Source: Chytriomyces cf. hyalinus JEL632 (lineage: Eukaryota > Chytridiomycota > Chytridiomycetes > Chytridiales > Chytriomycetaceae). Taken from it: 64,000 bases of DNA. A model generated the notes under the pieces. That model did not search any database, was not told the origin of the DNA, and saw nothing but the letters and a program-made list of their open reading frames with translations. The position numbers and the translations under genes are program-made. Every line of letters begins with the position of its first letter. Position 1 is the first letter of the stretch. The stretch is taken from contig JAIWWG010000134.1 of the NCBI GenBank assembly GCA_025435555.1, positions 1-64,000 of the forward strand, read 5' to 3'. Shown in pieces: positions 1 to 43,732 of this stretch.

Positions 1-401
1 AACGTAAAGCCTTCAGATAACGTTTCCGCTTTTTGAAGCATGTCCCCGATTACCCGATTGTCAGCAGAGGGGGGGATGTAGGCAGTGATGAGGATAAGAT
101 CAGAGATGCGCATTGCGCAATAGAACCCCAAGGGATCTTCATAGATAACTCGGAATTGGGGGGAGAGAGTTGCAGTTGAGAACGCCAAAATGCCGCCAAA
201 ATTGCGCCGACCTCCCGCAATTGCCTCCGTGTTTGTACTTGTGATATTAAATAGGTGTGGTCGAAAAGGAATGGAGGATGTTGGGGAGAGCCACGTTTCC
301 ACCATTAAAGAAAGGTCAACAGATTGCGCAGACTTGAATCTCAGGACTTCTTCGGCTTTGCCAGACAGCCCGTTGAGATTCGAAAATGCGATTTTGATCA
401 T
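1..401 (-). CDS. Retrotransposon ORF2, N-terminal endonuclease part (partial, copy A)
   Basis: The reading frame is open from ATG at 401 to the left edge with no indels against copy B. It encodes the first ~133 residues of the apurinic-type endonuclease (EEP fold) domain: the N-terminal SNLNGL motif carrying the catalytic Asn, and the METAL-binding Glu context VETW. The ATG overlaps the ORF1 stop in the tetranucleotide ATGA (398-401). The reverse transcriptase part would lie left of the window. In this class the endonuclease nicks the target DNA to prime reverse transcription. Confidence 0.85.
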   Translation of the reverse strand, partial: MIKIAFSNLNGLSGKAEEVLRFKSAQSVDLSLMVETWLSPTSSIPFRPHLFNITSTNTEAIAGGRRNFGGILAFSTATLSPQFRVIYEDPLGFYCAMRISDLILITAYIPPSADNRVIGDMLQKAETLSEGFT

Positions 402-2281
402 TCTTGGTCGGCGGCGTCAGCCGCGGGACCAAGATCCAGATTGGACACAGACATGGCAACATCGTCTTGACTATCGACAAACTCAGTAGATTCCGGAACT
501 GGGTCGAGAGTCACAAAATCAGTTAGCGACAGTGTGTCTGGGGCAGCAAATTTCGCAACGCGCTACGGGGGGGGCGTGGGGGTGCAAGAAGGGAGTCGGA
601 TGGGGAGCCTCTGGATGGTTTCAAACACTTTCTGCGTGGCTTCCTTGAGTTGCTGAGAGGCACCGGCAAGGATGGCAGCACGGAGATTGACAGTACGTGC
701 GGCTTTGCACAAAAACGCGAGGCGCTTGGCAGCTTTTTCTGTCTGGGTGGAGTCAAGGCGATTTCCGTCAATGTCGGATATGAGTGGGTTGAAGGCTGCA
801 AGGAGGACTTGTTGGCCACGCTCCCTAAGAACTCGCACCACTTCCAGAACAACATCAGTCGGACAATACAGCTCAATGATGGAGTTACCAATAGATGAGG
901 TAAGAGCCACATTGTGGCGAACCCCCATCTGTCCCACAAACGCATCGATCAAATGTTTCCGGTCCCGGAAGGAACATCCGCGCAACTGACGACTGCTGTG
1001 GAGTTCAACACGGATCACTGCAAACTTTTTCGGTTCAGGGACAGCTTTCGCCATCTGTAATGCCTTCTTTTGACGCATGCGGTGTGTTTTTTCATCATAC
1101 TGCTGCTGAGTTTGCGGCGCACGTTGACGAGATTCGCAAGATGGTGGAGGGGCACGACGCGTTCCATTACGTGCAACAGTGGACCAGGCGGCTTCAGCAA
1201 CCTGTGTGGAAGTGTTTTCAACAGCAACGGGTACAGAAACAGTTGTTGTTGAGGCAGGGGCAGCACCTGGGACAATACGCCCTCCAGGTCCAGTGCGACC
1301 TCCACGACCGCTTTTTCGAGAGGTACGCACATGGGGCTGCACGTGGGTGGACTGGGCTCCATTGGGAGTTGGTGCTGCGAGCGTGGGAGCAGTTGAAGCA
1401 CTGATGGAAGCCAAGAGGGCTGTTGCTGTGCTCAATGGCTGCGCCACAGTTGGCTGACACTCATTTGCTGTGCCTGATGGACTTACCCACACCAACTGAG
1501 CCCTGCTGCATCTGGGTGACCAGCTGGGCCAGCAGCGCAATCAGGGACTGCAGCTGCGTCTGAAGGGAAGCTGTAGCGGCCTCTGCTGCCTCTGCACGCT
1601 GCTGCCAGTTGACAGCTGTGGCAGGCACAGCAGGGGGTGGAAATGCATTCGAAATCACTGATGGCGACATTTCGGAGGCTGCAGCGGTGGTCTGCATGGC
1701 TGGCGCGGGTGCCATGAAGCTGAATTCGCTCTGTGGAAGGCCTGCGGAACCAGCTGGGGTGGTGAGATTGGTTGTTGGGGTTGTTGCTGTGCTTGCTGAG
1801 CCTGCTGAGCCTGCTGGTGGCTGATCCACAGAGCGGCCAGCGGTGGCTGCAGCAAATGAGAGGGTCTGTTGGATCAGACGACTCTGAGAAGCACTGCGTG
1901 TGGAAGTAGAGACTGCAGTGGCAGTGTCTGCTTCGGAGTTCTGGCGGCGGCGCTTTGCTGCTGTGCCTGTGGTGGAAGTGACTGGGACCAGCTTACCGAA
2001 AGCCTTCTCCCACTCTGCGTACAGGTCCGCAGAGGCCGACCCTCCTGCCTTCAGCGCTGCGTTGAGTCTGCAACGTTTGGTGCACGTGGTGCACTGCATT
2101 GGATGGTGGAGAACCCAAACTGGTTCGGATTCCCTCCCACCCCAAGGCTCTTCAGAGAGGCCGACCCGCATCCCGCCACGGGACAGCGAGCCGTCCCCTT
2201 GAGGCGCTTTGCGATGTTGAGCTCCAGCATCACGAACGGGTGCTTGGTGTTGGTGCTGCTGCTTTTGATGACCGTGGACAT
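398..2281 (-). pseudogene. Retrotransposon ORF1 (Gag-like), copy A, frameshifted
   Basis: This is the counterpart of the intact ORF1 of copy B. Against that copy it has four single-base indels: one base lost near 557, one gained near 612, one gained near 1480 and one lost near 2099. They split the frame into pieces at 2281-2099, 2099-1480, 1480-612, 612-557 and 557-398, but they sum to zero, so the start and stop keep the same spacing. ATG is at 2281 and the stop at 398-400. Either this copy is decaying or these are sequencing errors. The zero net change is chance, or a sign that ORF2 coupling was preserved. Confidence 0.85.
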
Positions 2282-2300
2282 TTCAAACAGACTTTTTTCT

Positions 2301-2319
2301 CCTAACCCTAACCCTAACG
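2301..2319 (-). repeat. Interstitial telomeric tract, three TTAGGG units
   Basis: The plus strand reads three consecutive CCTAAC units followed by G, which is TTAGGG on the minus strand. The tract sits exactly between the 3' end of one retrotransposon fragment (its minus-strand tail ends ...CTGAAAAC) and the 5' end of copy A. The G-rich strand is the retrotransposon sense strand and points left, the polarity expected if the chromosome end is to the left. No poly(A) tail precedes it. Confidence 0.95.
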
Positions 2320-3793
2320 TTTTCAGTTTCTTTTAATCAAGTTACACAGTAACACAAGTGCGGGGTTGAAAGATAGCAAAAATCACTCAAAAAAGTTCAA
2401 GAACTCCAAAGAATCAGAAGTAAAGTGCGGAAATGTTAAGAAAACAGATGATCGGTAAAGGTAATAAGATATGTATGGTCAGTTCGGGCTTGACGGTTGA
2501 TTATCCAGGCTCCGGGTTTTGCCGTGGTCGCCCAAGCGGGGCTCCCCCGGGTTGAGGTATGCGATTTCGCGGTCTTCGAGGCGGCAGTGGTCGTGCGGGT
2601 GCATCTGGCTCGGCCCAGTAGCCATTGGCTTGCTGTTGGAGGTGGCGACATTCGGTGTAGATGAGAGCTACGGCAGAAGAGACTTCGGTGTACGTGTCGA
2701 TTTCGGAGGGCGGTGTATTCCGGACTTCATTCAGGATCGTATCAAGCCAGGTCATTCGGCCGGCAGGAGGTGCAAGCGTGTCCCAGTTGATGCGCAGGAG
2801 AGCAGTGGCACCAGAACAGTCAGCAGCATGGGATCGGGTCAGTACGTCGTTGCACTTGAGGCACGGTTCGTGTCGGGTGACGGCACCAAGAGTCCAGCGA
2901 AGGATGTTGTTGCGTGTCTTGCGGTCAATTCCCTTGCAGGCAGTCAGATACGGCCGGACTGGGTCTTTGGTTTCGACTTGGATTGCGCCAGCAATGGTGT
3001 CCAGGTTGTTGTCCAGGTTGACGATGGATTCCTTGCGCAGCTTCTTGCGAGCATTGTCAGACAGCGCTTGTTTTGGCTTCGGAGGGTACCGGAACGGAAC
3101 TTCAGCTGGAGGTGGGGGAACCAGTGGTTGCTGTCGAAAATCAATCCATTTAGCATCCACATGAGTCACAAGTGGGTTGGAGCGAGCAAGGCGGGGAAGA
3201 CATTCCTGAAATGGTTTGTCAGCACCAAGCAGAGCGCCGCGCCAGAAACGAACAGCCGGGATAGAACGATCAGTTGAGTTATGCAATCGGGAGGACCACA
3301 TGAGATTGAGCTCGGTAGCACGGTGTTTGAATGGTTCGACTTGCAGCAGCTTGTGGAGAGCGGCAGTGGACGTGTTGCGGGGTGTTGATGTGAGAGTCCG
3401 TAGTGCAAGACGTTGGACCGACTCGTACAACTTGAGCGTGGACGCGGATGGGAGCTTGAGAGCAATGCCATATTCAAGGACCGGCCGAATGAAACTCCTG
3501 TAGATAGTAACAGAAGCTGCAGGAGCCCAGCCCATTGCATTCATACCTACCGATGCCAGCGCCACAATGACACCACGCGCTTTTGAAGTTCGTTCCTTTG
3601 CCAGCAGAGCCCAGTTGATTCCGTGTTGGCCAAAAGGGATGCCGAGATACGGGGCACATTGCTGGGATGGAAGGTCCACGTTGTAGAGCTTGAGAGGTAC
3701 ATCACGTAGTGCTGGAACAGGACCGAGATAGATGCACTTGGATGGCGAGAACCGGATGCCGACAGTGTTGGACCATTCCTCACACGTTCGGAG
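2320..3793 (-). mobile_element. Non-LTR retrotransposon 3' fragment, 5' truncated
   Basis: This fragment holds the C-terminal part of ORF2 and a ~180-base 3' UTR (2320-2500). It is 5' truncated within the reverse transcriptase domain, where it meets the degenerate telomeric tract at 3794. Five-prime truncation is the usual product of incomplete target-primed reverse transcription. That it belongs to the same element family as copies A and B is inferred from orientation, position and shared telomeric borders: the regions do not overlap in sequence, so identity cannot be shown here. The 3' end lacks a poly(A) run. Confidence 0.8.
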
Positions 3794-3795
3794 CC
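2501..3795 (-). pseudogene. ORF2 C-terminal fragment (end of RT, zinc-knuckle-like tail)
   Basis: The frame is open on the minus strand from the telomeric junction to the stop at 2501-2503, about 430 codons. The first residues (CEEWSN, then FSPSKC about 10 residues on) match the segment just after the YADD core in LINE reverse transcriptases, so the fingers and catalytic palm are missing. A region typical of the RT thumb follows, then a Cys/His cluster (CLKC...H..DC) like the C-terminal zinc motif of many LINE ORF2 proteins, then a Pro/Arg-rich tail. Without the catalytic aspartates and endonuclease it cannot be autonomous. Confidence 0.8.
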
Positions 3796-3852
3796 TTAAC
3801 CCTAACTCTAATCTTAATCTTAACTCTAACTCTAATCCTACCCTAACCCTAT
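3794..3852 (-). repeat. Degenerate interstitial telomeric tract (~10 units)
   Basis: The plus strand shows about ten hexamer-like units, CTTAAC, CCTAAC, TCTAAT, CTTAAT, CTTAAC, TCTAAC, TCTAAT, CCTAC, CCTAAC, CCTAT, all variants of CCCTAA in the same polarity as the tract at 2301. It joins a retrotransposon piece cut in the RT domain (left) to a piece cut after the endonuclease domain (right). The many variant units suggest either age or variant repeats of proximal telomere. It supplies the last codons and a stop to the truncated ORF2 on its right. Confidence 0.9.
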
Positions 3853-4195
3853 AGCAGGTTTTTCAAACCTCGTTCGCAGCAATTCCAGGCATAAGCACAT
3901 GTCCTGCTGCGTAGATGGGTTGGGAGCATCGACAGAACGTGTATGGGAGTGGGATGGACCAGCGGACTGAGAAGGACTGTCAGACATGTGAGTGGTGGCT
4001 CTGGGGCAATCCGCAGTGTGAGTAACAGGATCAAGAGAAGCATGGGAAGTACTTCCCGGAGGGTTGGCGCCTACTGCAGGTGCCACGGTGTGTGCATCGC
4101 ACTGTGATACACCCGCAACGTATCCCACAGCAGGGCTTTCCAAGCATGTTCGCAGCAATTCCAGTTGATCCAAGATCTCCTGCTGCGTAGACTCC
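3852..4195 (-). repeat. Imperfect internal duplication in the ORF2 linker
   Basis: Two segments of about 66 bases, 3852-3918 and 4130-4195, share a GTTCGCAGCAATTCCAG core and flanks ending in CCTGCTGCGTAGA. In protein both read as STQQ followed by LELLRT and a PA(V/I)G ending, giving a period near 277 bases. The duplication lies between the endonuclease and the missing RT domain. Confidence 0.75.
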
Positions 4196-4955
4196 AGCTC
4201 CTCAGCAAAACGCTGATGGTATTTGGCAGTTGTGAGGCGACGAACATTCCAGCGCGCAAAAGACTTGGGCTTGGTTTCGACATCCAGTGGCACAGAAAAT
4301 GTCAGCGGCCGATGGTCCGAACCTCCAAGTGACTCGCCTTCATGAACTGTGAGGTTAGAGACTGGGAAGCTCGAGAGTACAAGATCCGGAATCCCTCGAC
4401 CACCACCAGCCCACGACGTCCATTTCCCAGACTCCGGGATTTGAAGCGCAAGTCCAGAGTTGAGCAGTTCCTGCTGCATATACGTTCCACGTGTGTTTGT
4501 GAGTGAATCACCAGCATCCGTCATCCGTGCGTTCAGATCGCCAACCAAAAGACAACGCAACGTAAAGCCTTCAGATAACGTTTCCGCTTTTTGAAGCATG
4601 TCCCCGATTACCCGATTGTCAGCAGAGGGGGAGATGTAGGCAGTGATGAGGATAAGATCAGAGATGCGCATTGCGCAATAGAACCCCAAGGGATCTTCAT
4701 AGATAACTCGGAATTGGGGGGAGAGGGTTGCAGTTGAGAACGCCAAAATGCCGCCAAAATTGCGCCGACCTCCCGCGATCGCCTCCGTGTTTGTACTTGT
4801 GATATTAAATAGGTGTGGTCGAAAAGGAATGGAGGATGTTGGAGAGAGCCACGTTTCCACCATTAAAGAAAGGTCAACAGATTGCGCAGACTTGAATCTC
4901 AGGACTTCTTCGGCTTTGCCAGACAGCCCGTTGAGATTCGAAAACGCGATTTTGA

Positions 4956-4959
4956 TCAT
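4956..4959 (-). promoter_or_regulatory. ATGA stop-start overlap coupling ORF1 and ORF2
   Basis: On the minus strand the ORF1 stop TGA (4956-4958) overlaps the ORF2 ATG (4957-4959). The same tetranucleotide is kept in copy A at 398-401. Termination-reinitiation at overlapping stop and start codons is established for ORF2 of the silkworm telomeric LINE SART1; here it is inferred from geometry. Confidence 0.7.
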
Positions 4960-6839
4960 TCTTGGTCGGCGGCGTCAGCCGCGGGACCAAGATCCAGATT
5001 GGACACAGACATGGCAACATCGTCTTGACTATCGACAAACTCAGTAGATTCCGGAACTGGGTCGAGAGTCACAAAATCAGTTAGCGACAGTGTGTCTGAG
5101 GCAGCAAATTTCGCAAACGCGCTACGGTGGGGGCGTGGGGGTGCAAGAAGGGAGTCGGATGGGGAGCCTCGGATGGTTTCAAACACTTTCTGCGTGGCTT
5201 CCTTGAGTTGCTGAGAGGCACCGGCAAGGATGGCAGCACGGAGATTGACAGTACGTGCGGCTTTGCACAAAAACGCGAGGCGCTTGGCAGCTTTTTCTGT
5301 CTGGGTGGAGTCAAGGCGATTTCCGTCAATGTCAGATATGAGTGGGTTGAAGGCTGCAAGGAGGACTTGTTGGCCACGCTCCCTAAGAACTCGCACCACT
5401 TCCAGAACAACATCAGTCGGACAATACAGCTCAATGATGGAGTTACCAATAGATGAGGTAAGAGCCACATTGTGGCGAACCCCCATCTGTCCCACAAACG
5501 CATCGATCAAATGTTTCCGGTCCCGGAAGGAACATCCGCGCAACTGACGACTGCTGTGGAGTTCAACATGGATCACTGCAAACTTTTTCGGTTCAGGGAC
5601 AGCTTTCGCCATCTGTAATGCCTTCTTTTGACGCATGCGGTGTGTTTTTTCATCATACTGCTGCTGAGTTTGCGGCGCATGTTGACGAGATTCGCAAGAT
5701 GGTAGAGGGGCACGACGCGTTCCATTACGTGCAACAGTGGACCAGGCGGCTTCAGCAACCTGTGTGGAAGTGTTTTCAACAGCAACGGGTACAGAAACAG
5801 TTGTTGTTGAGGCAGGGGCAGCACCTGGGACAATACGCCCTCCAGGTCCAGTGCGACCTCCACGACCGCTTTTTCGAGAGGTACGCACATGGGGCTGCAT
5901 GTGGGTGGACTGGGCTCCATTGGGAGTTGGTGCTGCGAGCGTGGGAGCAGTTGAAGCACTGATGGAAGCCAAGAGGGCTGTTGCTGTGCTCAATGGCTGC
6001 GCCACAGTTGGCTGACACTCATTTGCTGTGCCTGATGACTTACCCACACCAACTGAGCCCTGCTGCATCTGGGTGACCAGCTGGGCCAGCAGCGCAATCA
6101 GGGACTGCAGCTGCGTCTGAAGGGAAGCTGTAGCGGCCTCTGCTGCCTCTGCACGCTGCTGCCAGTTGACAGCTGTGGCAGGCACAGCAGGGGGTGGAAA
6201 TGCATTCGAAATCACTGATGGCGACATTTCGGAGGCTGCAGCGGTGGTCTGCATGGCTGGCGCGGGTGCCATGAAGCTGAATTCGCTCTGTGGAAGGCCT
6301 GCGGAACCAGCTGGGGTGGTGAGATTGGTTGTTGGGGTTGTTGCTGTGCTTGCTGAGCCTGCTGAGCCTGCTGGTGGCTGATCCACAGAGCGGCCAGCGG
6401 TGGCTGCAGCAAATGAGAGGGTCTGTTGGATCAGACGACTCTGAGAAGCACTGGGTGTGGAAGTAGAGACTGCAGTGGCAGTGTCTGCTTCGGAGTTCTG
6501 GCAGCGGCGCTTTGCTGCTGTGCCTGTGGTGGAAGTGACTGGGACCAGCTTACCGAAAGCCTTCTCCCACTCTGCGTACAGGTCCGCAGAGGCCGACCCT
6601 CCTGCCTTCAGCGCTGCGTTGAGTCTGCAACGTTTGGTGCACGTGGTGCACTGCATCTGGATGGTGGAGAACCCAAACTGGTTCGGATTCCCTCCCACCC
6701 CAAGGCTCTTCAGAGAGGCCGACCCGCATCCCGCCACGGGACAGCGAGCCGTCCCCTTGAGGCGCTTTGCGATGTTGAGCTCCAGCATCACGAACGGGTG
6801 CTTGGTGTTGGTGCTGCTGCTTTTGATGACCGTGGACAT
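4956..6839 (-). CDS. Retrotransposon ORF1 (Gag-like nucleic-acid-binding protein), intact
   Basis: The ORF is 627 codons from the ATG at 6839; the open frame extends further upstream, but the counterpart in copy A starts at this ATG just inside the element. Near the N-terminus two Cys pairs (CPVAGC, then CTTC...C about 35 residues later) could form a zinc ribbon, a design unlike the usual CCHC knuckles. Residues ~130-300 are Ala/Gln/Pro/Thr-rich low complexity with a short heptad-like segment, then an Arg/Gly patch. The last ~200 residues hold a compact alpha/beta-looking domain ending in an acidic tail. ORF1 proteins of this class bind element RNA and, in telomere-specific elements, help target telomeres; that role here is inference. 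Confidence 0.85.
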   Translation of the reverse strand: MSTVIKSSSTNTKHPFVMLELNIAKRLKGTARCPVAGCGSASLKSLGVGGNPNQFGFSTIQMQCTTCTKRCRLNAALKAGGSASADLYAEWEKAFGKLVPVTSTTGTAAKRRCQNSEADTATAVSTSTPSASQSRLIQQTLSFAAATAGRSVDQPPAGSAGSASTATTPTTNLTTPAGSAGLPQSEFSFMAPAPAMQTTAAASEMSPSVISNAFPPPAVPATAVNWQQRAEAAEAATASLQTQLQSLIALLAQLVTQMQQGSVGVGKSSGTANECQPTVAQPLSTATALLASISASTAPTLAAPTPNGAQSTHMQPHVRTSRKSGRGGRTGPGGRIVPGAAPASTTTVSVPVAVENTSTQVAEAAWSTVARNGTRRAPLPSCESRQHAPQTQQQYDEKTHRMRQKKALQMAKAVPEPKKFAVIHVELHSSRQLRGCSFRDRKHLIDAFVGQMGVRHNVALTSSIGNSIIELYCPTDVVLEVVRVLRERGQQVLLAAFNPLISDIDGNRLDSTQTEKAAKRLAFLCKAARTVNLRAAILAGASQQLKEATQKVFETIRGSPSDSLLAPPRPHRSAFAKFAASDTLSLTDFVTLDPVPESTEFVDSQDDVAMSVSNLDLGPAADAADQE

Positions 6840-6853
6840 TTCAAACAGACTTT

Positions 6854-7719
6854 TTCCTGACCTGGGCGTTGGCAGAGTTGGAAGCATGTCGCCAGACCTG
6901 CTGCCCCAACAAAACAATGGAACAAGTGAGGGAAAGATACAGCTTCTGCGGTGGCGTTCCACAATTTGCTTTCGACCCCGATGCATCTACCAATATCCCT
7001 GACAGAGTGATGGCTGCATTGGTAAATGTGAATGTTCTCGGGGCAGTCAAGTTTGTTGCCAACCCTTCCGACATGCCGACGGAAGCACACGATCTCATCC
7101 ATCTGGTTGTTGAAAGTGAAGCAGAGGCCGTACTTATCAGTTTCTTGGCGTTGACTTTGCATCCAGATACATTTGCAAAAAACTCTTGGAGCATGATCCA
7201 GACCAAATGATGGAGCCTGTTCAAGAAACCTTCAACGAAAGTCCATGGCCGGTAGCGCAACATCTGTTTCAGATTGACGGGCAAAATGTCCTTTCGGTGG
7301 GTGGAAGGGAGCTCAACTGTCGGAACCTGACAACTGGCGGGCATTCAAAACTGATGCTCGATAAGTTTGGGGGCAAAAAAACCACTCTTTTCAAAGCAAG
7401 TAGCCATCCAGTTTGAAAATACCACAAGCCTTCAGATGATGACCATTTCCCAGCCGTTGATGCATTGAACGAACAGGGAATGTTTCAGTTTATTGTTAAA
7501 GCCGAATATCCGCTGCAAGTTGAAGCTTTGGAGGAATTGTATGCTTTGTGCGATGAGCCAAAACTCTATTTTGTGGTGCCAACGCATCTTTTCAAGGACT
7601 TTAAAAAACGACAGTTGTTGGAGGAGGATGGACATCGGGTGGTGAATACGATTGAAAGGCTGGAGCAGTATGTTTTGGAACTGCCAGTCAAGCCGGAGCG
7701 AAAATGGGGCTACAAATGA
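6854..7719 (+). pseudogene. Crinkler/RHS-family P-loop NTPase, C-terminal remnant
   Basis: Plus-strand fragments match the C-terminal half of the CRN/RHS (Crinkler / retrotransposon hot spot) NTPases. Frame one from 6854 reads TWALAELEAC, then RYSFCGGVP, the hallmark 'GGVPR' region with Gln in place of the usual Arg. After a frame change near 7190-7200 a poorly conserved middle part follows (to ~7416), and a third frame at 7465-7719 holds LYFVVP and QYVLELPV, the usual C-terminal end. The Walker A and B part and the N-terminus are absent: the remnant starts exactly where retrotransposon copy B ends. At least two frame breaks make it a pseudogene. The family assignment is from motif recall, not a search. 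Confidence 0.65.
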
Positions 7720-29731: not shown

Positions 29732-32700
29732 TTACTGTCCCGTTCGTTTAACGGCATCAAGACCTGCCAATGAATCCCAGATTGGAAGCTTCTTCATTGC
29801 TGTTCCAGTGCGTGGAGGTGCATCCAAGTACCCAACTGCCACCAAATATCCAAAGTACAAACTCATGACCGTGCTCATGTCTTCACACACTACTTTGGAA
29901 CCTTCACAGATTTTCTTGGTATTCGTTTCATCCAGCTCAGGCGATCGCGTACTGGTTGGCAAGTCATCAAGGACAAAGTGCAACAGTGGGAACAGGGAAT
30001 GTGGTTCTCCAGCCGAAGCTTCGGCAGGTGCAAGAGTCAAGTCCATCAATGCCGTTCTCCAGTTAATGTAGTCGGTCAACTCAACATTGTAGCCATGTGC
30101 CTTGATCTGGTTGAATAAATCGTCGAACCGGAAGCTGCCAAAACGAAAAGAGGTAAGTAAGACAAACAGTCATTCGTCCAGAAAAAACGATGGAAACTCA
30201 ACTGGTTCGCATTCCAAATATGGAAAACTCCTAAAGGCAGTGCCTGTTCGTCCTTTGCGGCGACTTCCGCAATCGCATCTGCAACATAGTCCACCGAACA
30301 CATGTTGACAATGTTGGAAATGCTGGGAACCTGCCCCAGTTGTATGCATCCCTTCACCAGTCGCCACAAGAAATCGTCCGTGTTATTGACACCACTTTTG
30401 GAGTCGCCCACTATGTAACCAGGTCTGATGATCGTGGCAGGAACCCCTCGTTCCCGAGCCCTCATCACAAGCTTCTCTGCGACCCATTTCGTTTGGCCAT
30501 ATCCACTTCGCAGTCCCTTACGCGCCCCTTCCAAATCATCCGATTCAGGAACAGGTTTTCCGGCGTTTAAATACCGGCGAATGAATGAACCAGTGTCAAG
30601 GACAGAGGTGGACGAGACCAGGTGAAATGCCTTCAAGGGTCCAGTTGTTGCAAGCATCAATGCCCAGTGTGTCCCCATGACATTTGCAGCTCTTAACTTG
30701 TGGTATGGGTAAACCCAGTGCACCTAAAAACATGTCGAAACAATGAGATCATTGAAATGACGAATAAAAATCTGAAATGCCTACCAATGCACCGTTATGA
30801 ACGACCACATCGACTCGCTGGCACAAGTCATCCCAAGACGCACCAAGACCCAACTTCTCTTCTCCCAAATCACCGACAACAGCTTCAACGCGCGTGTTCC
30901 ATTCTTCAGACCACAACAAATGACGCGTACCATTTTCTTTCAGGCGTTTCATTCCAAGATCCGCGTCTTTCGCTCGGACAAGACAAATAACTTTACATTG
31001 CGGGAATCGCTTGAGCAGGCTCGACAACACAAAGATACCAAGGAATCCAGTCGCACCCGTCAAGAAAAATACTGCAGGTCGGCCAAGAGCATTCAGGTCT
31101 TTGGGTTCAAACTTTTGAGTTGCTTTGACATGTTCAGGATCGTCAACGACATCCAGGTCATCAGCATAAGGGTAAATGTCATCCAAGAGCTCTTCGTGGG
31201 AGATATTGCTTGTAGTTCTGACACGAGCTGAAGATTCCGTCAAGTTAAGGTCCATATCACGCAGACGCTCCACTTCAGCTGCCATGAGTTCAACGGTGGG
31301 CTCGTTATAGACAACACCCATAGGAATTTCAATAGCAAGAGCTTTACGAAGGCCGAAAATGAGGCGGGTGGCGAGAATGGAATGTCCTCCGAGGTCAAAA
31401 AAGTTATCCGTGAGTGCGATAGTGTCATCTGCAATACTGAGAATTTCAGCCCACACTTTTCTGATTGTGGATTGAATCGGAGTGAGCTCAAACAGCTCCG
31501 CAGTGCTTGGTGCAGTAGTTCCAAACAGAGCAGCCGTGTCAGGGAAAGGCAAAACGTTCTTATCAACTTTTCCATTTGGTGTAAGCGGCATCCTTCGAAG
31601 CGGAGCGATAACTTATCCCGTAATAATAAGAATTAGCACGATGATGTCGAATATGACAATAAATAACGTCAGCGTACCAGTAGGAACAGCGTACGCAGGC
31701 AACTTCTGCTTCAAATATTCACGAATATCCTTCACAAGGGCCCTCAGATCAATCGCTTCGTAGTCTCCGCTCAATGGTACAAAGTAGCTGACAAGTGTGG
31801 GCTCCTCGAATTTATCACGTCTGACAAGCGTCACATTTTCGCGGACGCCAGGATGCTGACTGAGGTGCGTGTCGATTTCGCCCAATTCAATTCTGAATCC
31901 TCGGATTTTAACTTGATCGTCTGCCCGACCCGTGCACTCAACACTTCCATCCGGACGATAGCGACCCAAGTCTCCAGTCTTGTACATACGGTCCCGCGCA
32001 CCGTGGTAGTACGGAAGAGCCTTTTCTTGAAGTCCAGCAACACTGTTGAAGGGGTTTACCAAAAACTTGCTTTGAGTCACTTCGTCCAGCATCAGATAAC
32101 CTTCGGCAAGGCCTCCGCTTCGAACATGGATTTCTCCCACTTCTCCAACGCCGCAAAGAAGTCCGCTGGAGTTGATAACAAGAAGCTGAACGTTGTTCAT
32201 TCCCTTTCCAGCAGGCATAATGTCCTTTTGAAGTGAAAGGAAGGAAGGATTCACACTTGGTGGAGGAATGGGAAGATATGAGACTGCTCGCTGAGTCTCG
32301 GTCGTGCCGTACATGTTGATAATTGTGACATTTTGAGCGAGGTATTGTAAACGAGAAACATCACGCTTGGTAAGCACATCTCCAACAAAGAATGCATTTC
32401 GCAGGGTTGGAATCGATGCAGTGGCATTTGCGCTGAGAAGCTGTCCCATGGCTGGAGTAAGGTGTGTTATCGTGATTCCATGGTTTGACATCCATGAGGC
32501 AAGTTGGCCCGGAGTGGCAATGTCAGAACTTGTTGGAATGTGCAGTTGAGCTCCCAGAAACAGAGGAGTGAAAATATCCCGCTGAATAGGGTCGTGGGCG
32601 ATTCCACTGAGCATAGTGAACCTTTCGGCATTTGAGAGGTTGAATTCTTGTTTCATCCACGGGTAAAAGTGTGTCAGCGAGAAGTGCCTTCCACGAACAC

Positions 32701-34376
32701 CCTTCGGAATTCCGGTACTACCACTGAAGAATAAACGCGGCTTAATATAAGCTTATGTTTTGGAAATGGAAAACCCGTACCTTGTGAAACTCAAAGTTCC
32801 AATGCTGTCAGGACCCAAGACGATATCAGCGTTCACAGTTCCGAGATGTTTCACTGCATCTAAAGAATCAATAGAGCTCCCTTCGATGCTGCCGCCGACT
32901 AGTGACCCGTCCGTCATAATTTCCAAGGCTGGAATTTCGCATTTGATTTCAAGTTTTTCGTTCACGTACGACCTCACTTCGCTGTCCAAAACGCCCGCCT
33001 TTTTAAGGACAACGAGACCTCGGGGTTGGGCCACAGACAAGTAAACAATCTGACGGGGAGGGGGGTATGCAGGGTCTGGAAGAAATTCAAAAATGAGGAA
33101 GAACGATGCAAATATCGAGAGCGGGGAGTAACAGTAGAACAAACCAATAACACTGAAAGTTGCACCACTCTTTAAGACCCCCATCACTGCAACAACAAGG
33201 TCGACTCCTCGATAACTGTATAAAACAACAACATCCTCTCTTTGAATCCCCCCTTTAATGAGTGCATGCGCAACTATGTTAGAAGCTTCGTGGATTTGCT
33301 TGTACGTAAAGGTGCGCTCGGTACTCGTTATACTATATTGTTTTTTCAATATGAAATACAACATCGAACACAGAAATCGAACTCACCCATCAGCGCTCAA
33401 CAAACTTTCAACAATGCAGCAACGATCAGGATGCGCAGCCGCATTCTTGGCAAAGATATCGGTAATAGCACCTTCAAACCCATCCCAGTGCAAATGCTTC
33501 TTTGGATCCGGCAGCCGAGCAACCGAGTCCTTGGTCACAAGACTCAACTTTCCAATAGGGATGGCAGGGTTGGACGCAGCCGTCTCGAGAATCAGCTCAA
33601 TCTGATCCAACATATCCGCAATGCGTGCACCCGAGAACAACACCGAGTTGTACAAGACTTTAACATCAATGGGAAGGATTCTACGCAACGTGGGTGCCTG
33701 CGAAATCAGAATCGTAATATCGCAACTTGAGATGGAAGCGCTCGAAGACGATGCAAGCGTGTCAGCCGTTGTATCGGTTAGATTGAAAAACCGGACTTTG
33801 AAAAGGGACTTGTTTGTATTTTCCTGTCCCTCGGGGTTCTCAGGGGCGGTTCCGGAAGTGGGTGACGAGGACCCAAACATGTGCTCTAGAAGTGCCGTGA
33901 ATGATACTTCAGTGTCGGCAGCCTCTTTCGCATTGGCTGTGACTTTGGCAAGGACTTGCGCAAACGAGTCCGCATCAGTCAGCGCACATCGCAACACAAG
34001 CGGATTCGATGCAAGAGAAGAAGATCCGACGGAAATATCTTCCTCGCCAGTATGTTTGTGCTGCAGACAGGGCGTGGATGGGTTTACATAAACAAATTGA
34101 TCACACAAATCTTATCAACAATGACTCATACGAACTAACCAGAAGAATGACGAATGCAGCCAAAAGAACGTCAAAGGGTGCGCGCGGCTCTGTGGGATCA
34201 CTGATTGCCAGTCGCAGGAGAGACACGGCCGATGTCTCCGAGATGCTCCGATTCGTGGCAGTCTCTACGAACTGGGCAGGGATGGGTCGCGGGTAGTCTG
34301 TCGGGAGGACTATGTCCGTCAGCGCGTGCAGCCGTGTTGCGTTGCGTTCCAGACGGTCTGCAAGGGGAAGTGTCAT
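29732..34376 (-). CDS. LYS2: L-2-aminoadipate reductase (LYS2), with an apparent one-base frameshift
   Basis: Eight exons total 1396 codons if one extra base is discounted, close to yeast Lys2 (about 1390): 34140-34376, 33387-34060, 33145-33332, 32781-33075, 31678-32724, 30785-31611, 30203-30723, 29732-30134. The enzyme reduces alpha-aminoadipate to its semialdehyde in the fungal lysine pathway. Visible are an N-terminal condensation-like part, the adenylation domain ([25 protein letters not shown]), the carrier site FFDLGGHS whose Ser takes phosphopantetheine, and the NADPH-binding [10 protein letters not shown] of the reductase. The run CCCC at 32700-32703 (GGGG in sense) has one G too many: GIPKG is in one frame and VRGRHFSL in the next. 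All other exon phases agree, so this is a sequencing error or a null allele. Confidence 0.92.
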
Positions 34377-42683: not shown

Positions 42684-43732
42684 CTAACTCTGCTGCGTTG
42701 TCGCTTGCGCTCGTTTCCAACTCTCTTTTGTAAAGTCTGCACTCGTACTCCCAAAGATTTCAAGAGTCTTCCGGTTCTGATACGCCCATCCGTACTCCAT
42801 ATTCGACGTCGGTGGGAACTTGTACTTTTCCGCCGGCAACAATTCTGATGAAACTCCTTTTTGTCGCAATGCTTTAAACGCACGATCGCTGCCCGCTTTT
42901 GAAGAAACGGCGGATACCAAAGCAGTACGGCTCTGACAAACTGGATGCTGCTGATTCGATACGTTATTAAAAGACGCCAAAGACGCTTGATGCGCGTGAT
43001 TTCTCGGCTCATTCGACCGCTTTGACCCCTGTTGTTGCGTAGCAGAGAATCCAGGTTTATACTGATTCGAAACAACGCGGTGGTAAAGCCCCGTTTGATG
43101 ATCATAACAATACTGTCCGCCTTGATCTGCGTTGTTGTTGTTGTAGTTGGAAGATTCAATTTCATTGCTTCGGAGCGAGGTTCCCTTTGTTGGGTTTGGA
43201 TGATTGGGGTGCCTGGCATTCTTGCAGGACATGAAATCGTGCCGGTTTCCAGTCACTTTGAAGCTGTTGAAGGCCCCATGTTTCTTGTCTGCTTCGCTGC
43301 CGTCAGGGGTCGTAGGTCGCGATGACAGCGGATTCCTTTTCGGAGTATTGATGATACTATATGACGACCATTTCGTTGGCTTTGGAAGTAAAAATAGCAG
43401 TGTGCACTCGCAGTCAGTAAAATTACCACACTGAAAGCACAAAATTTTTACCACAGCCTTGGGCGCCGGAACTGACGAGCCCAGCTCCCCCAGATACAAC
43501 TGCGTGTCGTTGAGGACGCCCCACTTGTCGCTCCAGTCGCGCTGCGCTTTCATTTCTTTTGCCATTCGATCGAGCCTGTCCTTGAAACGCTAAGAAGGGG
43601 TATTGTACATCGACAAGTGAGTGTTTACCAGGCGGCATTCTTTGCTGTGCTAAGCGCGTCTTGCAGCCTTGCAGCATCCTTGTCTCTGAGGCGGGCAGTT
43701 TCCACGACGCCAGCTTTGTTCCGTTTCGACAT
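42684..43732 (-). CDS. Possible ciliary microtubule-associated protein
   Basis: Two exons join in phase: 43629-43732 and 42684-43575. An internal in-frame intron (GTG/gtaaaa ... ccaaag) near 43380-43455 is possible and would remove 25 codons. The N-terminus is helical and charged (DKDAARLQDALSTAKNAAW, LDRMAKEMKAQRDWSDKWG). A low-complexity Asn/His/Gln middle follows, and the C-terminus has FPPTSNMEYGW and RKTLEIFG. The WSxKWG and TSNxxYGW patterns recall small axonemal proteins (CFAP144/FAM183 or CIMIP1 types), which would suit a flagellated zoospore. That link is recall of short motifs only and may be wrong; otherwise it is an orphan. Confidence 0.5.

Follow-up and report, generated by a model that had tools for sequence, protein, structure and literature searches.

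Several groups of LINEs inhabit telomere repeats. The TRAS and SART elements of the silkworm (R1 clade) resemble those reported here in being two-ORF LINEs with an apurinic-type (EEP) endonuclease that sit in telomere repeats as several coexisting families, as described in PMC7265360; a further likeness is that the two kinds are inserted in opposite orientations (PMC7265360 and PMC10088271). MoTeR1 of Magnaporthe/Pyricularia and FoTeR of Fusarium, both CRE-type, are likewise fungal LINEs at telomere repeats, and for MoTeR PMC7367193 and PMC12857005 describe arrays, truncated copies and telomere healing. HeT-A, TART and TAHRE of Drosophila also form head-to-tail LINE arrays at chromosome ends; according to PMC10088271 and PMC4700185, they join chromosome ends with the poly(A) facing the centromere, and their host lacks telomerase. 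GilM/GilT (Giardia), Zepp (Chlorella) and Tx1-1_ACar (anole) are further LINEs reported from telomere repeats (PMC10088271). For chytrid telomere LINEs, the accessible open-licence literature held nothing relevant; it likewise held no report of an EEP endonuclease in fungal telomere elements, those found being of the CRE type, and the available part of PMC8381367 added nothing on LINE types.

The window, by which we mean the whole stretch of 64,000 nucleotides analysed here, is part of a 71,872-bp contig (C40) in an assembly of 37.8 Mb and 242 contigs. Its first 6.9 kb are made up of three pieces of one LINE family (family 1), all on the minus strand. LINE-C (1..2299) comprises the 5' part of the element, with ORF1 and the start of ORF2, runs off the contig start and matches positions 1-2299 of a full-length copy (C66:38444-44360) at 99.6% identity; its 5' end is located at about 2298-2293 (A6 GTCTG). 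LINE-B (2319..3794) is 5'-truncated, retains the C-terminal part of ORF2 and a 3' UTR ending ATTAAAAGAAACTGAAAAC, and shows 99.9% identity to the full-length copy from 4427 to the end. LINE-A (3846..6855) is again a 5' part, broken at element position about 3012, with 98.97% identity to positions 3-3012. It carries the N-terminal part of ORF2 (3841..4974, minus strand), whose EEP endonuclease matches PF14529 Exo_endo_phos_2 above the cut-off (E=2.9e-10), and ORF1 (4959..6986, minus strand; a stop-to-stop frame that extends beyond the 5' end at 6855), in which no Pfam family exceeds its cut-off.

The 3' end of LINE-B and the 5' end of LINE-C are separated by the telomeric spacer GTTAGGGTTAGGGTTAGG (2301..2318, minus strand), with AG at 2300-2299. 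Read on the minus strand at 2318-2301, the order is ..AAACTGAAAAC, GTTAGGGTTAGGGTTAGG, AG and finally AAAAAAGTCTGTTTGAAATG, which is the next copy's 5' end; a longer read of the LINE 3' end ahead of this spacer is ..TTAAAAGAAACTGAAAAC. The spacer comprises three telomeric units, 18 nt in length (19 by BLAST), and has no poly(A), exactly as the original prediction described. That prediction also placed telomeric repeats at both kinds of border, which is correct for this joint but not for the 5' border of the innermost copy (6856 onward), where the 12 bp ahead of LINE-A, GCCCAGGTCAGG (6856..6867, minus strand), are not telomeric and share 7 of 12 places with GTTAGGGTTAGG (by eye). A degenerate telomeric tract (TAGGGTTAGGGTAGGATTAGAGTTAGAGTTAAGATTAAG..., 3795..3845, minus strand) lies between the 5'-truncated LINE-B and the 3'-broken LINE-A. 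The window contains TTAGGGTTAGGG, with at most one mismatch, five times; shuffled sequence gives an expectation of 0.09. Rfam and ARAGORN returned nothing at their thresholds for the window.

At least 87 matches to the window element were located on at least 18 contigs (32 of 121 candidates scored), many of them in head-to-tail arrays. The genome holds at least three families of one design, in which ORF2 encodes an EEP endonuclease and a reverse transcriptase and the 3' end is common to all. Full-length copies are available for family 1, the window family (about 5.9 kb), and family 2 (about 5.45 kb); for family 3, a copy with open ORF1 and ORF2 was read on C92. The open ORF2 frames span 1278, 1221 and 1230 codons in families 1, 2 and 3, and the ORF2 proteins of families 2 and 3 are 30% and 31% identical to that of family 1. 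At least two further 5' ends appear at joints on C10, C95, C203, C5 and C137. The 3' ends of the three families have ACTGAAAAC in common, in a set that was selected on this motif.

The predicted apurinic-type endonuclease was borne out, since PF14529 scores above its cut-off in all three families as well as in the window copy. A profile of the three-family endonuclease matches L1 endonuclease structures with E of 3e-4 to 5e-3, the R1Bm endonuclease reaching only 0.83. The PDB matches as a whole are to L1, R2-type and APE/ExoIII-type proteins and one bacterial reverse transcriptase, those of the reverse transcriptase being L1, R2-type and bacterial. RVT_1 is recognised in the three families (E of 1.9e-25, 1e-23 and 3.6e-15), LLFADDT is invariant across their reverse transcriptases, and a C-terminal CCHC (C-x2-C..H-x3-C) is conserved in the ORF2 alignment. 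No RHD/PD core of a restriction-like endonuclease was seen by eye at the C-terminus of the three-family alignment. Given the endonuclease, the reverse transcriptase, the 5' truncations and the target-site duplications, these are several families of autonomous EEP-type non-LTR retrotransposons. ORF2 is unbroken in 9/10 family-1 copies and 5/5 family-2 copies examined, and 11 full-length family-1 copies are mutually 99.97-100% identical; the LINE families are young.

The sense strand of the element ends ..CTGAAAAC directly ahead of GTTAGGG, and copies follow one another head to tail about 12 bases apart, mostly with GTTAGGGTTAGG between them, the 18 of the window being an exception. We examined 67 LINE-to-LINE joints, 52 of which could be measured against the family-1 and family-2 references; the remaining 15 had no homology to these references. 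The spacer is 10 nt at 9 of the measurable joints, 11 nt at 9, 12 nt at 15 and 13 nt at 10, with longer ones of 14 nt at 5, 15 nt at 2, 17 nt at 1 and 19 nt at 1, the window joint. The three-unit joint is thus real in the window but not the rule: 51/52 spacers measure 10-17 nt and that of the window, 19 by BLAST, is the longest. The count is blurred at full-length next copies by their starting A-run. 5' truncation is common, and at the joints of the 12 truncated copies that were measured, the spacer is 12 nt in 10/12 and 11 nt in 2/12, with 11 different truncation points and no poly(A) at any of the 12. Separately, a family-1 copy with an identical break point (3247) stands behind a family-2 copy at both C66:35764 and C78:10281, pointing to exchange between chromosome ends or haplotypes, so that arrays are also built by exchange with one another.

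The bases that follow the LINE 3' ends were surveyed with the 3' end fixed and the next 12 bases free. This gave 139 matches in total (44 for a reversed-pattern control) and 79 zero-mismatch rows among the matches listed; dropping 3 look-alikes left 76 ends, and the last letter of the pattern excludes ends with G as the 13th base. Among the matches listed, the 12-mer of 61/76 ends differs from GTTAGGGTTAGG at no more than 3 positions (30 exact); 9/76 ends belong to a sister sub-family with another 12-mer and 6/76 are further away. The telomeric flanks expected at other copies are therefore present over these 12 bases, but what lies beyond is mostly another LINE, and long telomere tracts are found at few places. 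After the 30 exact GTTAGGGTTAGG, the commonest 12-mers among the 76 listed ends are GTTAGGGTTAGA (7) and GTTAGGATTAGG (4), besides others; some are bound to one locus, namely GTTAGGGTTATG (3, all on C10, where 7/7 listed ends have it), GTTAGAGTTAGG (2, C5) and GTTAAGGTTAGC (2, C203). Over the 41 distinct contig/12-mer pairs, the sister group being left aside, G occupies position 1 in 40 and T position 2 in 41, and the commonest base per position spells GTTAGGGTTAGG. Arrays tend to keep their own 12-mer: 55/83 same-contig pairs are identical against 14.5 by permutation (0/5000 as high), and with the majority 12-mer removed, 9/16 are identical against 0.93 expected. Mixed 12-mers occur within arrays on C5, C78, C96 and C142. 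Exchange between arrays could account for part of the sharing within contigs.

The origin of the 12 bases is most clearly seen inside contigs. On the 216-kb contig C203, three LINE-type units of 2.3, 6.7 and 5.7 kb, of which the ends alone were read, are stacked, and GTTAAGGTTAGC is present four times, once ahead of the first unit and once after each of the three 3' ends; in the 37.8 Mb it occurs 5 times, 4 of them here. Paralogous empty sites on contigs C162 and C173 share both the left and the right flank with this locus and have GTTAAGGTTCGC just once. The copy on C221 is solitary, about 2.2 kb long and truncated inside the family-3 ORF2 (its first codons match from residue 599); GTTAGGGAGTAA stands on both sides of it, an exact 12-bp duplication in non-telomeric flanks. 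When paralogs were sought for 12 internal 3' flanks, with 40 of 266 candidates scored, a LINE-free one turned up for 4/12, namely C2 (GTTAGGGAATAG), C4 (GTTGGGGTAGGC), C13 (ATTAGGCAACAG) and C203, and 4/4 of these already hold the motif (GTTAGGG, GTTGGGG, ATTAGG and GTTAAGG). The duplication covers 12 bp starting with GTTAGGG or a near variant and is complete on both sides at two loci; at first copies in telomeric DNA (C76, C238) it is approximate only. From C203, C221 and the LINE-free paralogs, we conclude that the spacer comes from the host target, of which 12 bp are duplicated; the possibility that the telomeric tract is part of the element consensus is rejected by the empty sites and the exact 12-bp duplications. 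Beyond the stack, C203:103700-105300 resembles a helicase gene (by eye).

We had at first favoured a tail encoded by the element itself, with an RNA ending ..CUGAAAACGUUAGGGUUAGG and arrays built by end-to-end template jumping of the reverse transcriptase between RNAs. The spacer is near constant across families and truncations, and the sister sub-family has another constant 12-mer (GTAACTTTTAGG at 8 places, GCAACTTTTAGG at 1), both as such a tail would predict. The explanation was dropped on the results for C203, C221 and C10 and is now very unlikely: the spacer varies with the locus and agrees with the target beside it (C203, C221), C10, C5 and C137 retain variants of their own, LINE-free paralogs already contain the motif, and the 12-mer is also placed ahead of the first LINE at C203 and C221, at C203 beside flanks that are common to the empty sites.

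It is improbable, too, that only a first copy was inserted and that the arrays are ordinary subtelomeric tandem duplications formed by unequal exchange or break-induced replication. The 99.97-100% identity of copies and the break point common to C66 and C78 would suit this, but duplication does not account for an 11-12 nt spacer that recurs at 11 different truncation points behind the 3' ends of at least three families, nor for a stack inside a contig with its own target 12-mer. LINEs without any target specificity, the telomeric DNA at joints being telomerase healing of broken copies, are hardly credible. Contig C209 does end in a broken LINE with a TTAGGG cap, the window at 3795-3845 looks alike and a TERT gene is present; however, healing accounts neither for dozens of copies with an intact 3' end at ^GTTAGGG nor for insertions flanked on both sides by 12-bp duplications (C203, C221).

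We consider it highly probable that several autonomous LINE families insert by target-primed reverse transcription at the 12-bp target GTTAGGGTTAGG, which is two telomere units, and stack by renewal of the site. The sequence target, the 12-bp duplication, the stacking, the orientation and the 5' truncation are demonstrated parts of this mechanism. The junctions suggest that the first nick would fall in the C-rich strand, 5'-CCTAAC^, and the G-rich strand would be cut 12 nt further on; the 3' OH at the nick would prime cDNA synthesis from the 3' end of the RNA. As the duplicated 12 bp contain the preferred sequence, two intact landing sites would remain after each insertion, and the renewed site would allow later copies of any family to land on the same spot. 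In telomeres, this would yield arrays whose 5' ends face inward and whose 3' ends face the tip, and at lone GTTAGGG-like sites, interstitial copies or stacks. A point against the model is that many sites are available in a long telomere tract; spacers of about 12 in most arrays would require either a preference for the duplicated site or arrays founded at single sites. For SART1 of the silkworm, a role has been suggested for the 12 bp upstream of the nick (available part of PMC7265360), which may be an analogy to the 12-bp target here.

Breaks inside copies may be healed with TTAGGG and the healed ends able to take new copies, which would explain the tract at 3795-3845; we infer that it is a chromosome end that was healed and later buried. 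In the window, LINE-A would have been broken, its end healed with telomeric DNA and LINE-B inserted there, and LINE-C would then have landed beyond LINE-B, one repeat further out than usual. Buried telomeric tracts (window 3795-3845 and the flanks on C209, C76 and C238) are degenerate, often with G-to-A on the G-rich strand (TTAAGG, TTAGAG; by eye), and these changes could be C-to-T mutation of methylated C.

Real telomeric DNA is found next to some arrays. At C111:986975-987100 (of 992,932), 21 TTAGGG units and then one slightly altered unit separate chromosome DNA from a copy that is without about its first 80 bases and reaches the contig end. On C94, (TTAGGG)n lies behind the last copies at the contig end; at the end of C209, a LINE broken in ORF2 is capped by TTAGGG; and degenerate telomere precedes the first copies on C209, C76 and C238. 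Because (TTAGGG)3 is present on only 4 contigs, most arrays are without a link to a real telomere. Flanking DNA is located 5' and the contig end 3' in 8/8 contigs of at least 60 kb among the element matches listed, and likewise on C111 and C94. This fits a chromosome end beyond the 3' side, as an interstitial array would be cut on either side. We rejected clustering near contig ends as proof of a telomeric location, the counts not being above expectation: on 18 contigs of at least 60 kb, 27/41 3' ends lie within 40 kb (25.3 expected) and 18/41 within 20 kb (13.2 expected), 5 of 93 3'-end matches having been left out, a 2-mismatch look-alike among the reasons. Proximity to contig ends proves little in any case, as arrays break assemblies. 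Lone GTTAGGG-like sites inside contigs are also hit, and these internal copies show that the specificity is for sequence and that location is not required. The proposed targeting of telomeres is therefore upheld as insertion into TTAGGG-like sequence but not as confinement to telomeres. At C209:187800-188150, copia-like polyprotein DNA (by eye) is joined directly to degenerate telomere and then a LINE, which looks like a broken, healed chromosome end.

A second kind of LINE, with poly(A), has inserted in telomere-like repeats in the opposite orientation. At C94:22266-22811, its poly(A) 3' end runs in the opposite direction, with TTAGGG units directly ahead of the poly(T); other places are on C193, C177, C167, C232 and C76 and at C5:75069 and C111:14033. 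There are 24 matches, and the C5 copy holds RVT_1. The inward flank is TTAGGG-like at 15/19 places read (by eye, some weak or degenerate) and not so at 4.

The sister sub-family, read in copies on C25 and C120, is 88% identical to the window family and has the 3' end AATAAAAGAAACTGAAAAC. Its 12-mer is GTAACTTTTAGG or GCAACTTTTAGG in 9/9 zero-mismatch rows among the matches listed, with places on C2, C9, C21, C46, C132, C147, C212 and C228. One dispersed repeat (ATTGGTAAAGGCCCAACAGTCC.. or a shortened form) comes next at 8/9 places, suggesting a changed target or a composite repeat.

The host has genes for TERT (PF12009) and IFT46. The window contains a LYS2-like gene (30079-34111, minus strand), for which TIGR03443 (L-aminoadipate-semialdehyde dehydrogenase) is the best match in 5/5 pieces, although no piece attains the full-length cut-off by itself. 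The aminoadipate-pathway gene LYS2 is a mark of fungi. An ORF at 42687-43589 (minus strand) has weak matches to LLC1, SPMIP11, SPMIP1 and FAM183, above two curated cut-offs; we take these to be flagellar or ciliary (sperm microtubule inner) proteins. The LYS2-like gene, IFT46 and this ORF make a flagellated fungus likely, so the original assignment to a zoosporic fungus is probably correct.

We tentatively propose, as a reading that may well prove wrong, that telomere targeting by EEP-type LINEs evolved in zoosporic fungi independently of insects. The two-unit recognition sequence would lie inside the 12-bp duplication, so that insertion never exhausts the landing site and different families pile up on it; the second, poly(A) LINE in the opposite orientation would complete a TRAS/SART-like pair beside a telomerase gene, and the sister sub-family would have shifted to GTAACTTTTAGG in a dispersed repeat. 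If true, the presence of an EEP type in a flagellated fungus would imply a renewed origin of telomere homing among fungi, based on a different enzyme and in the opposite orientation. The stacks preserve a natural history of one 12-bp site being hit repeatedly, and the genome also contains empty sites; together these make the specificity of the endonuclease, and its change between sister families, directly readable.

The elements described here differ from each known system in several respects. HeT-A, TART and TAHRE are unlike them in that target duplications and a TERT gene are present here, and end attachment of the HeT-A/TART type, with a poly(A) 3' end joined inward and no duplication, was not found at the joints, C203 or C221. 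MoTeR and FoTeR have a restriction-like endonuclease and their 5' end toward the tip, whereas here the endonuclease is EEP and the 3' end lies toward the tip. SART1 has a poly(A) end, which must be long, while the families here are without poly(A) (12/12 joints with a truncated next copy). The insertion point of TRAS lies in CCTAA, between C and T, and that of SART in TTAGG, between T and A, whereas the joint here is TTAGG^GTTAGG; neither the insertion position of TRAS/SART nor their poly(A) was found, the 3' joint being CTGAAAAC^GTTAGGG. The telomere unit is TTAGG in the silkworm and TTAGGG here, and the stacked 12-bp duplications are unlike TRAS and SART. As far as the accessible descriptions of these systems go, TRAS and SART are functionally the nearest and, among fungi, MoTeR and FoTeR, with another endonuclease and the reverse orientation.
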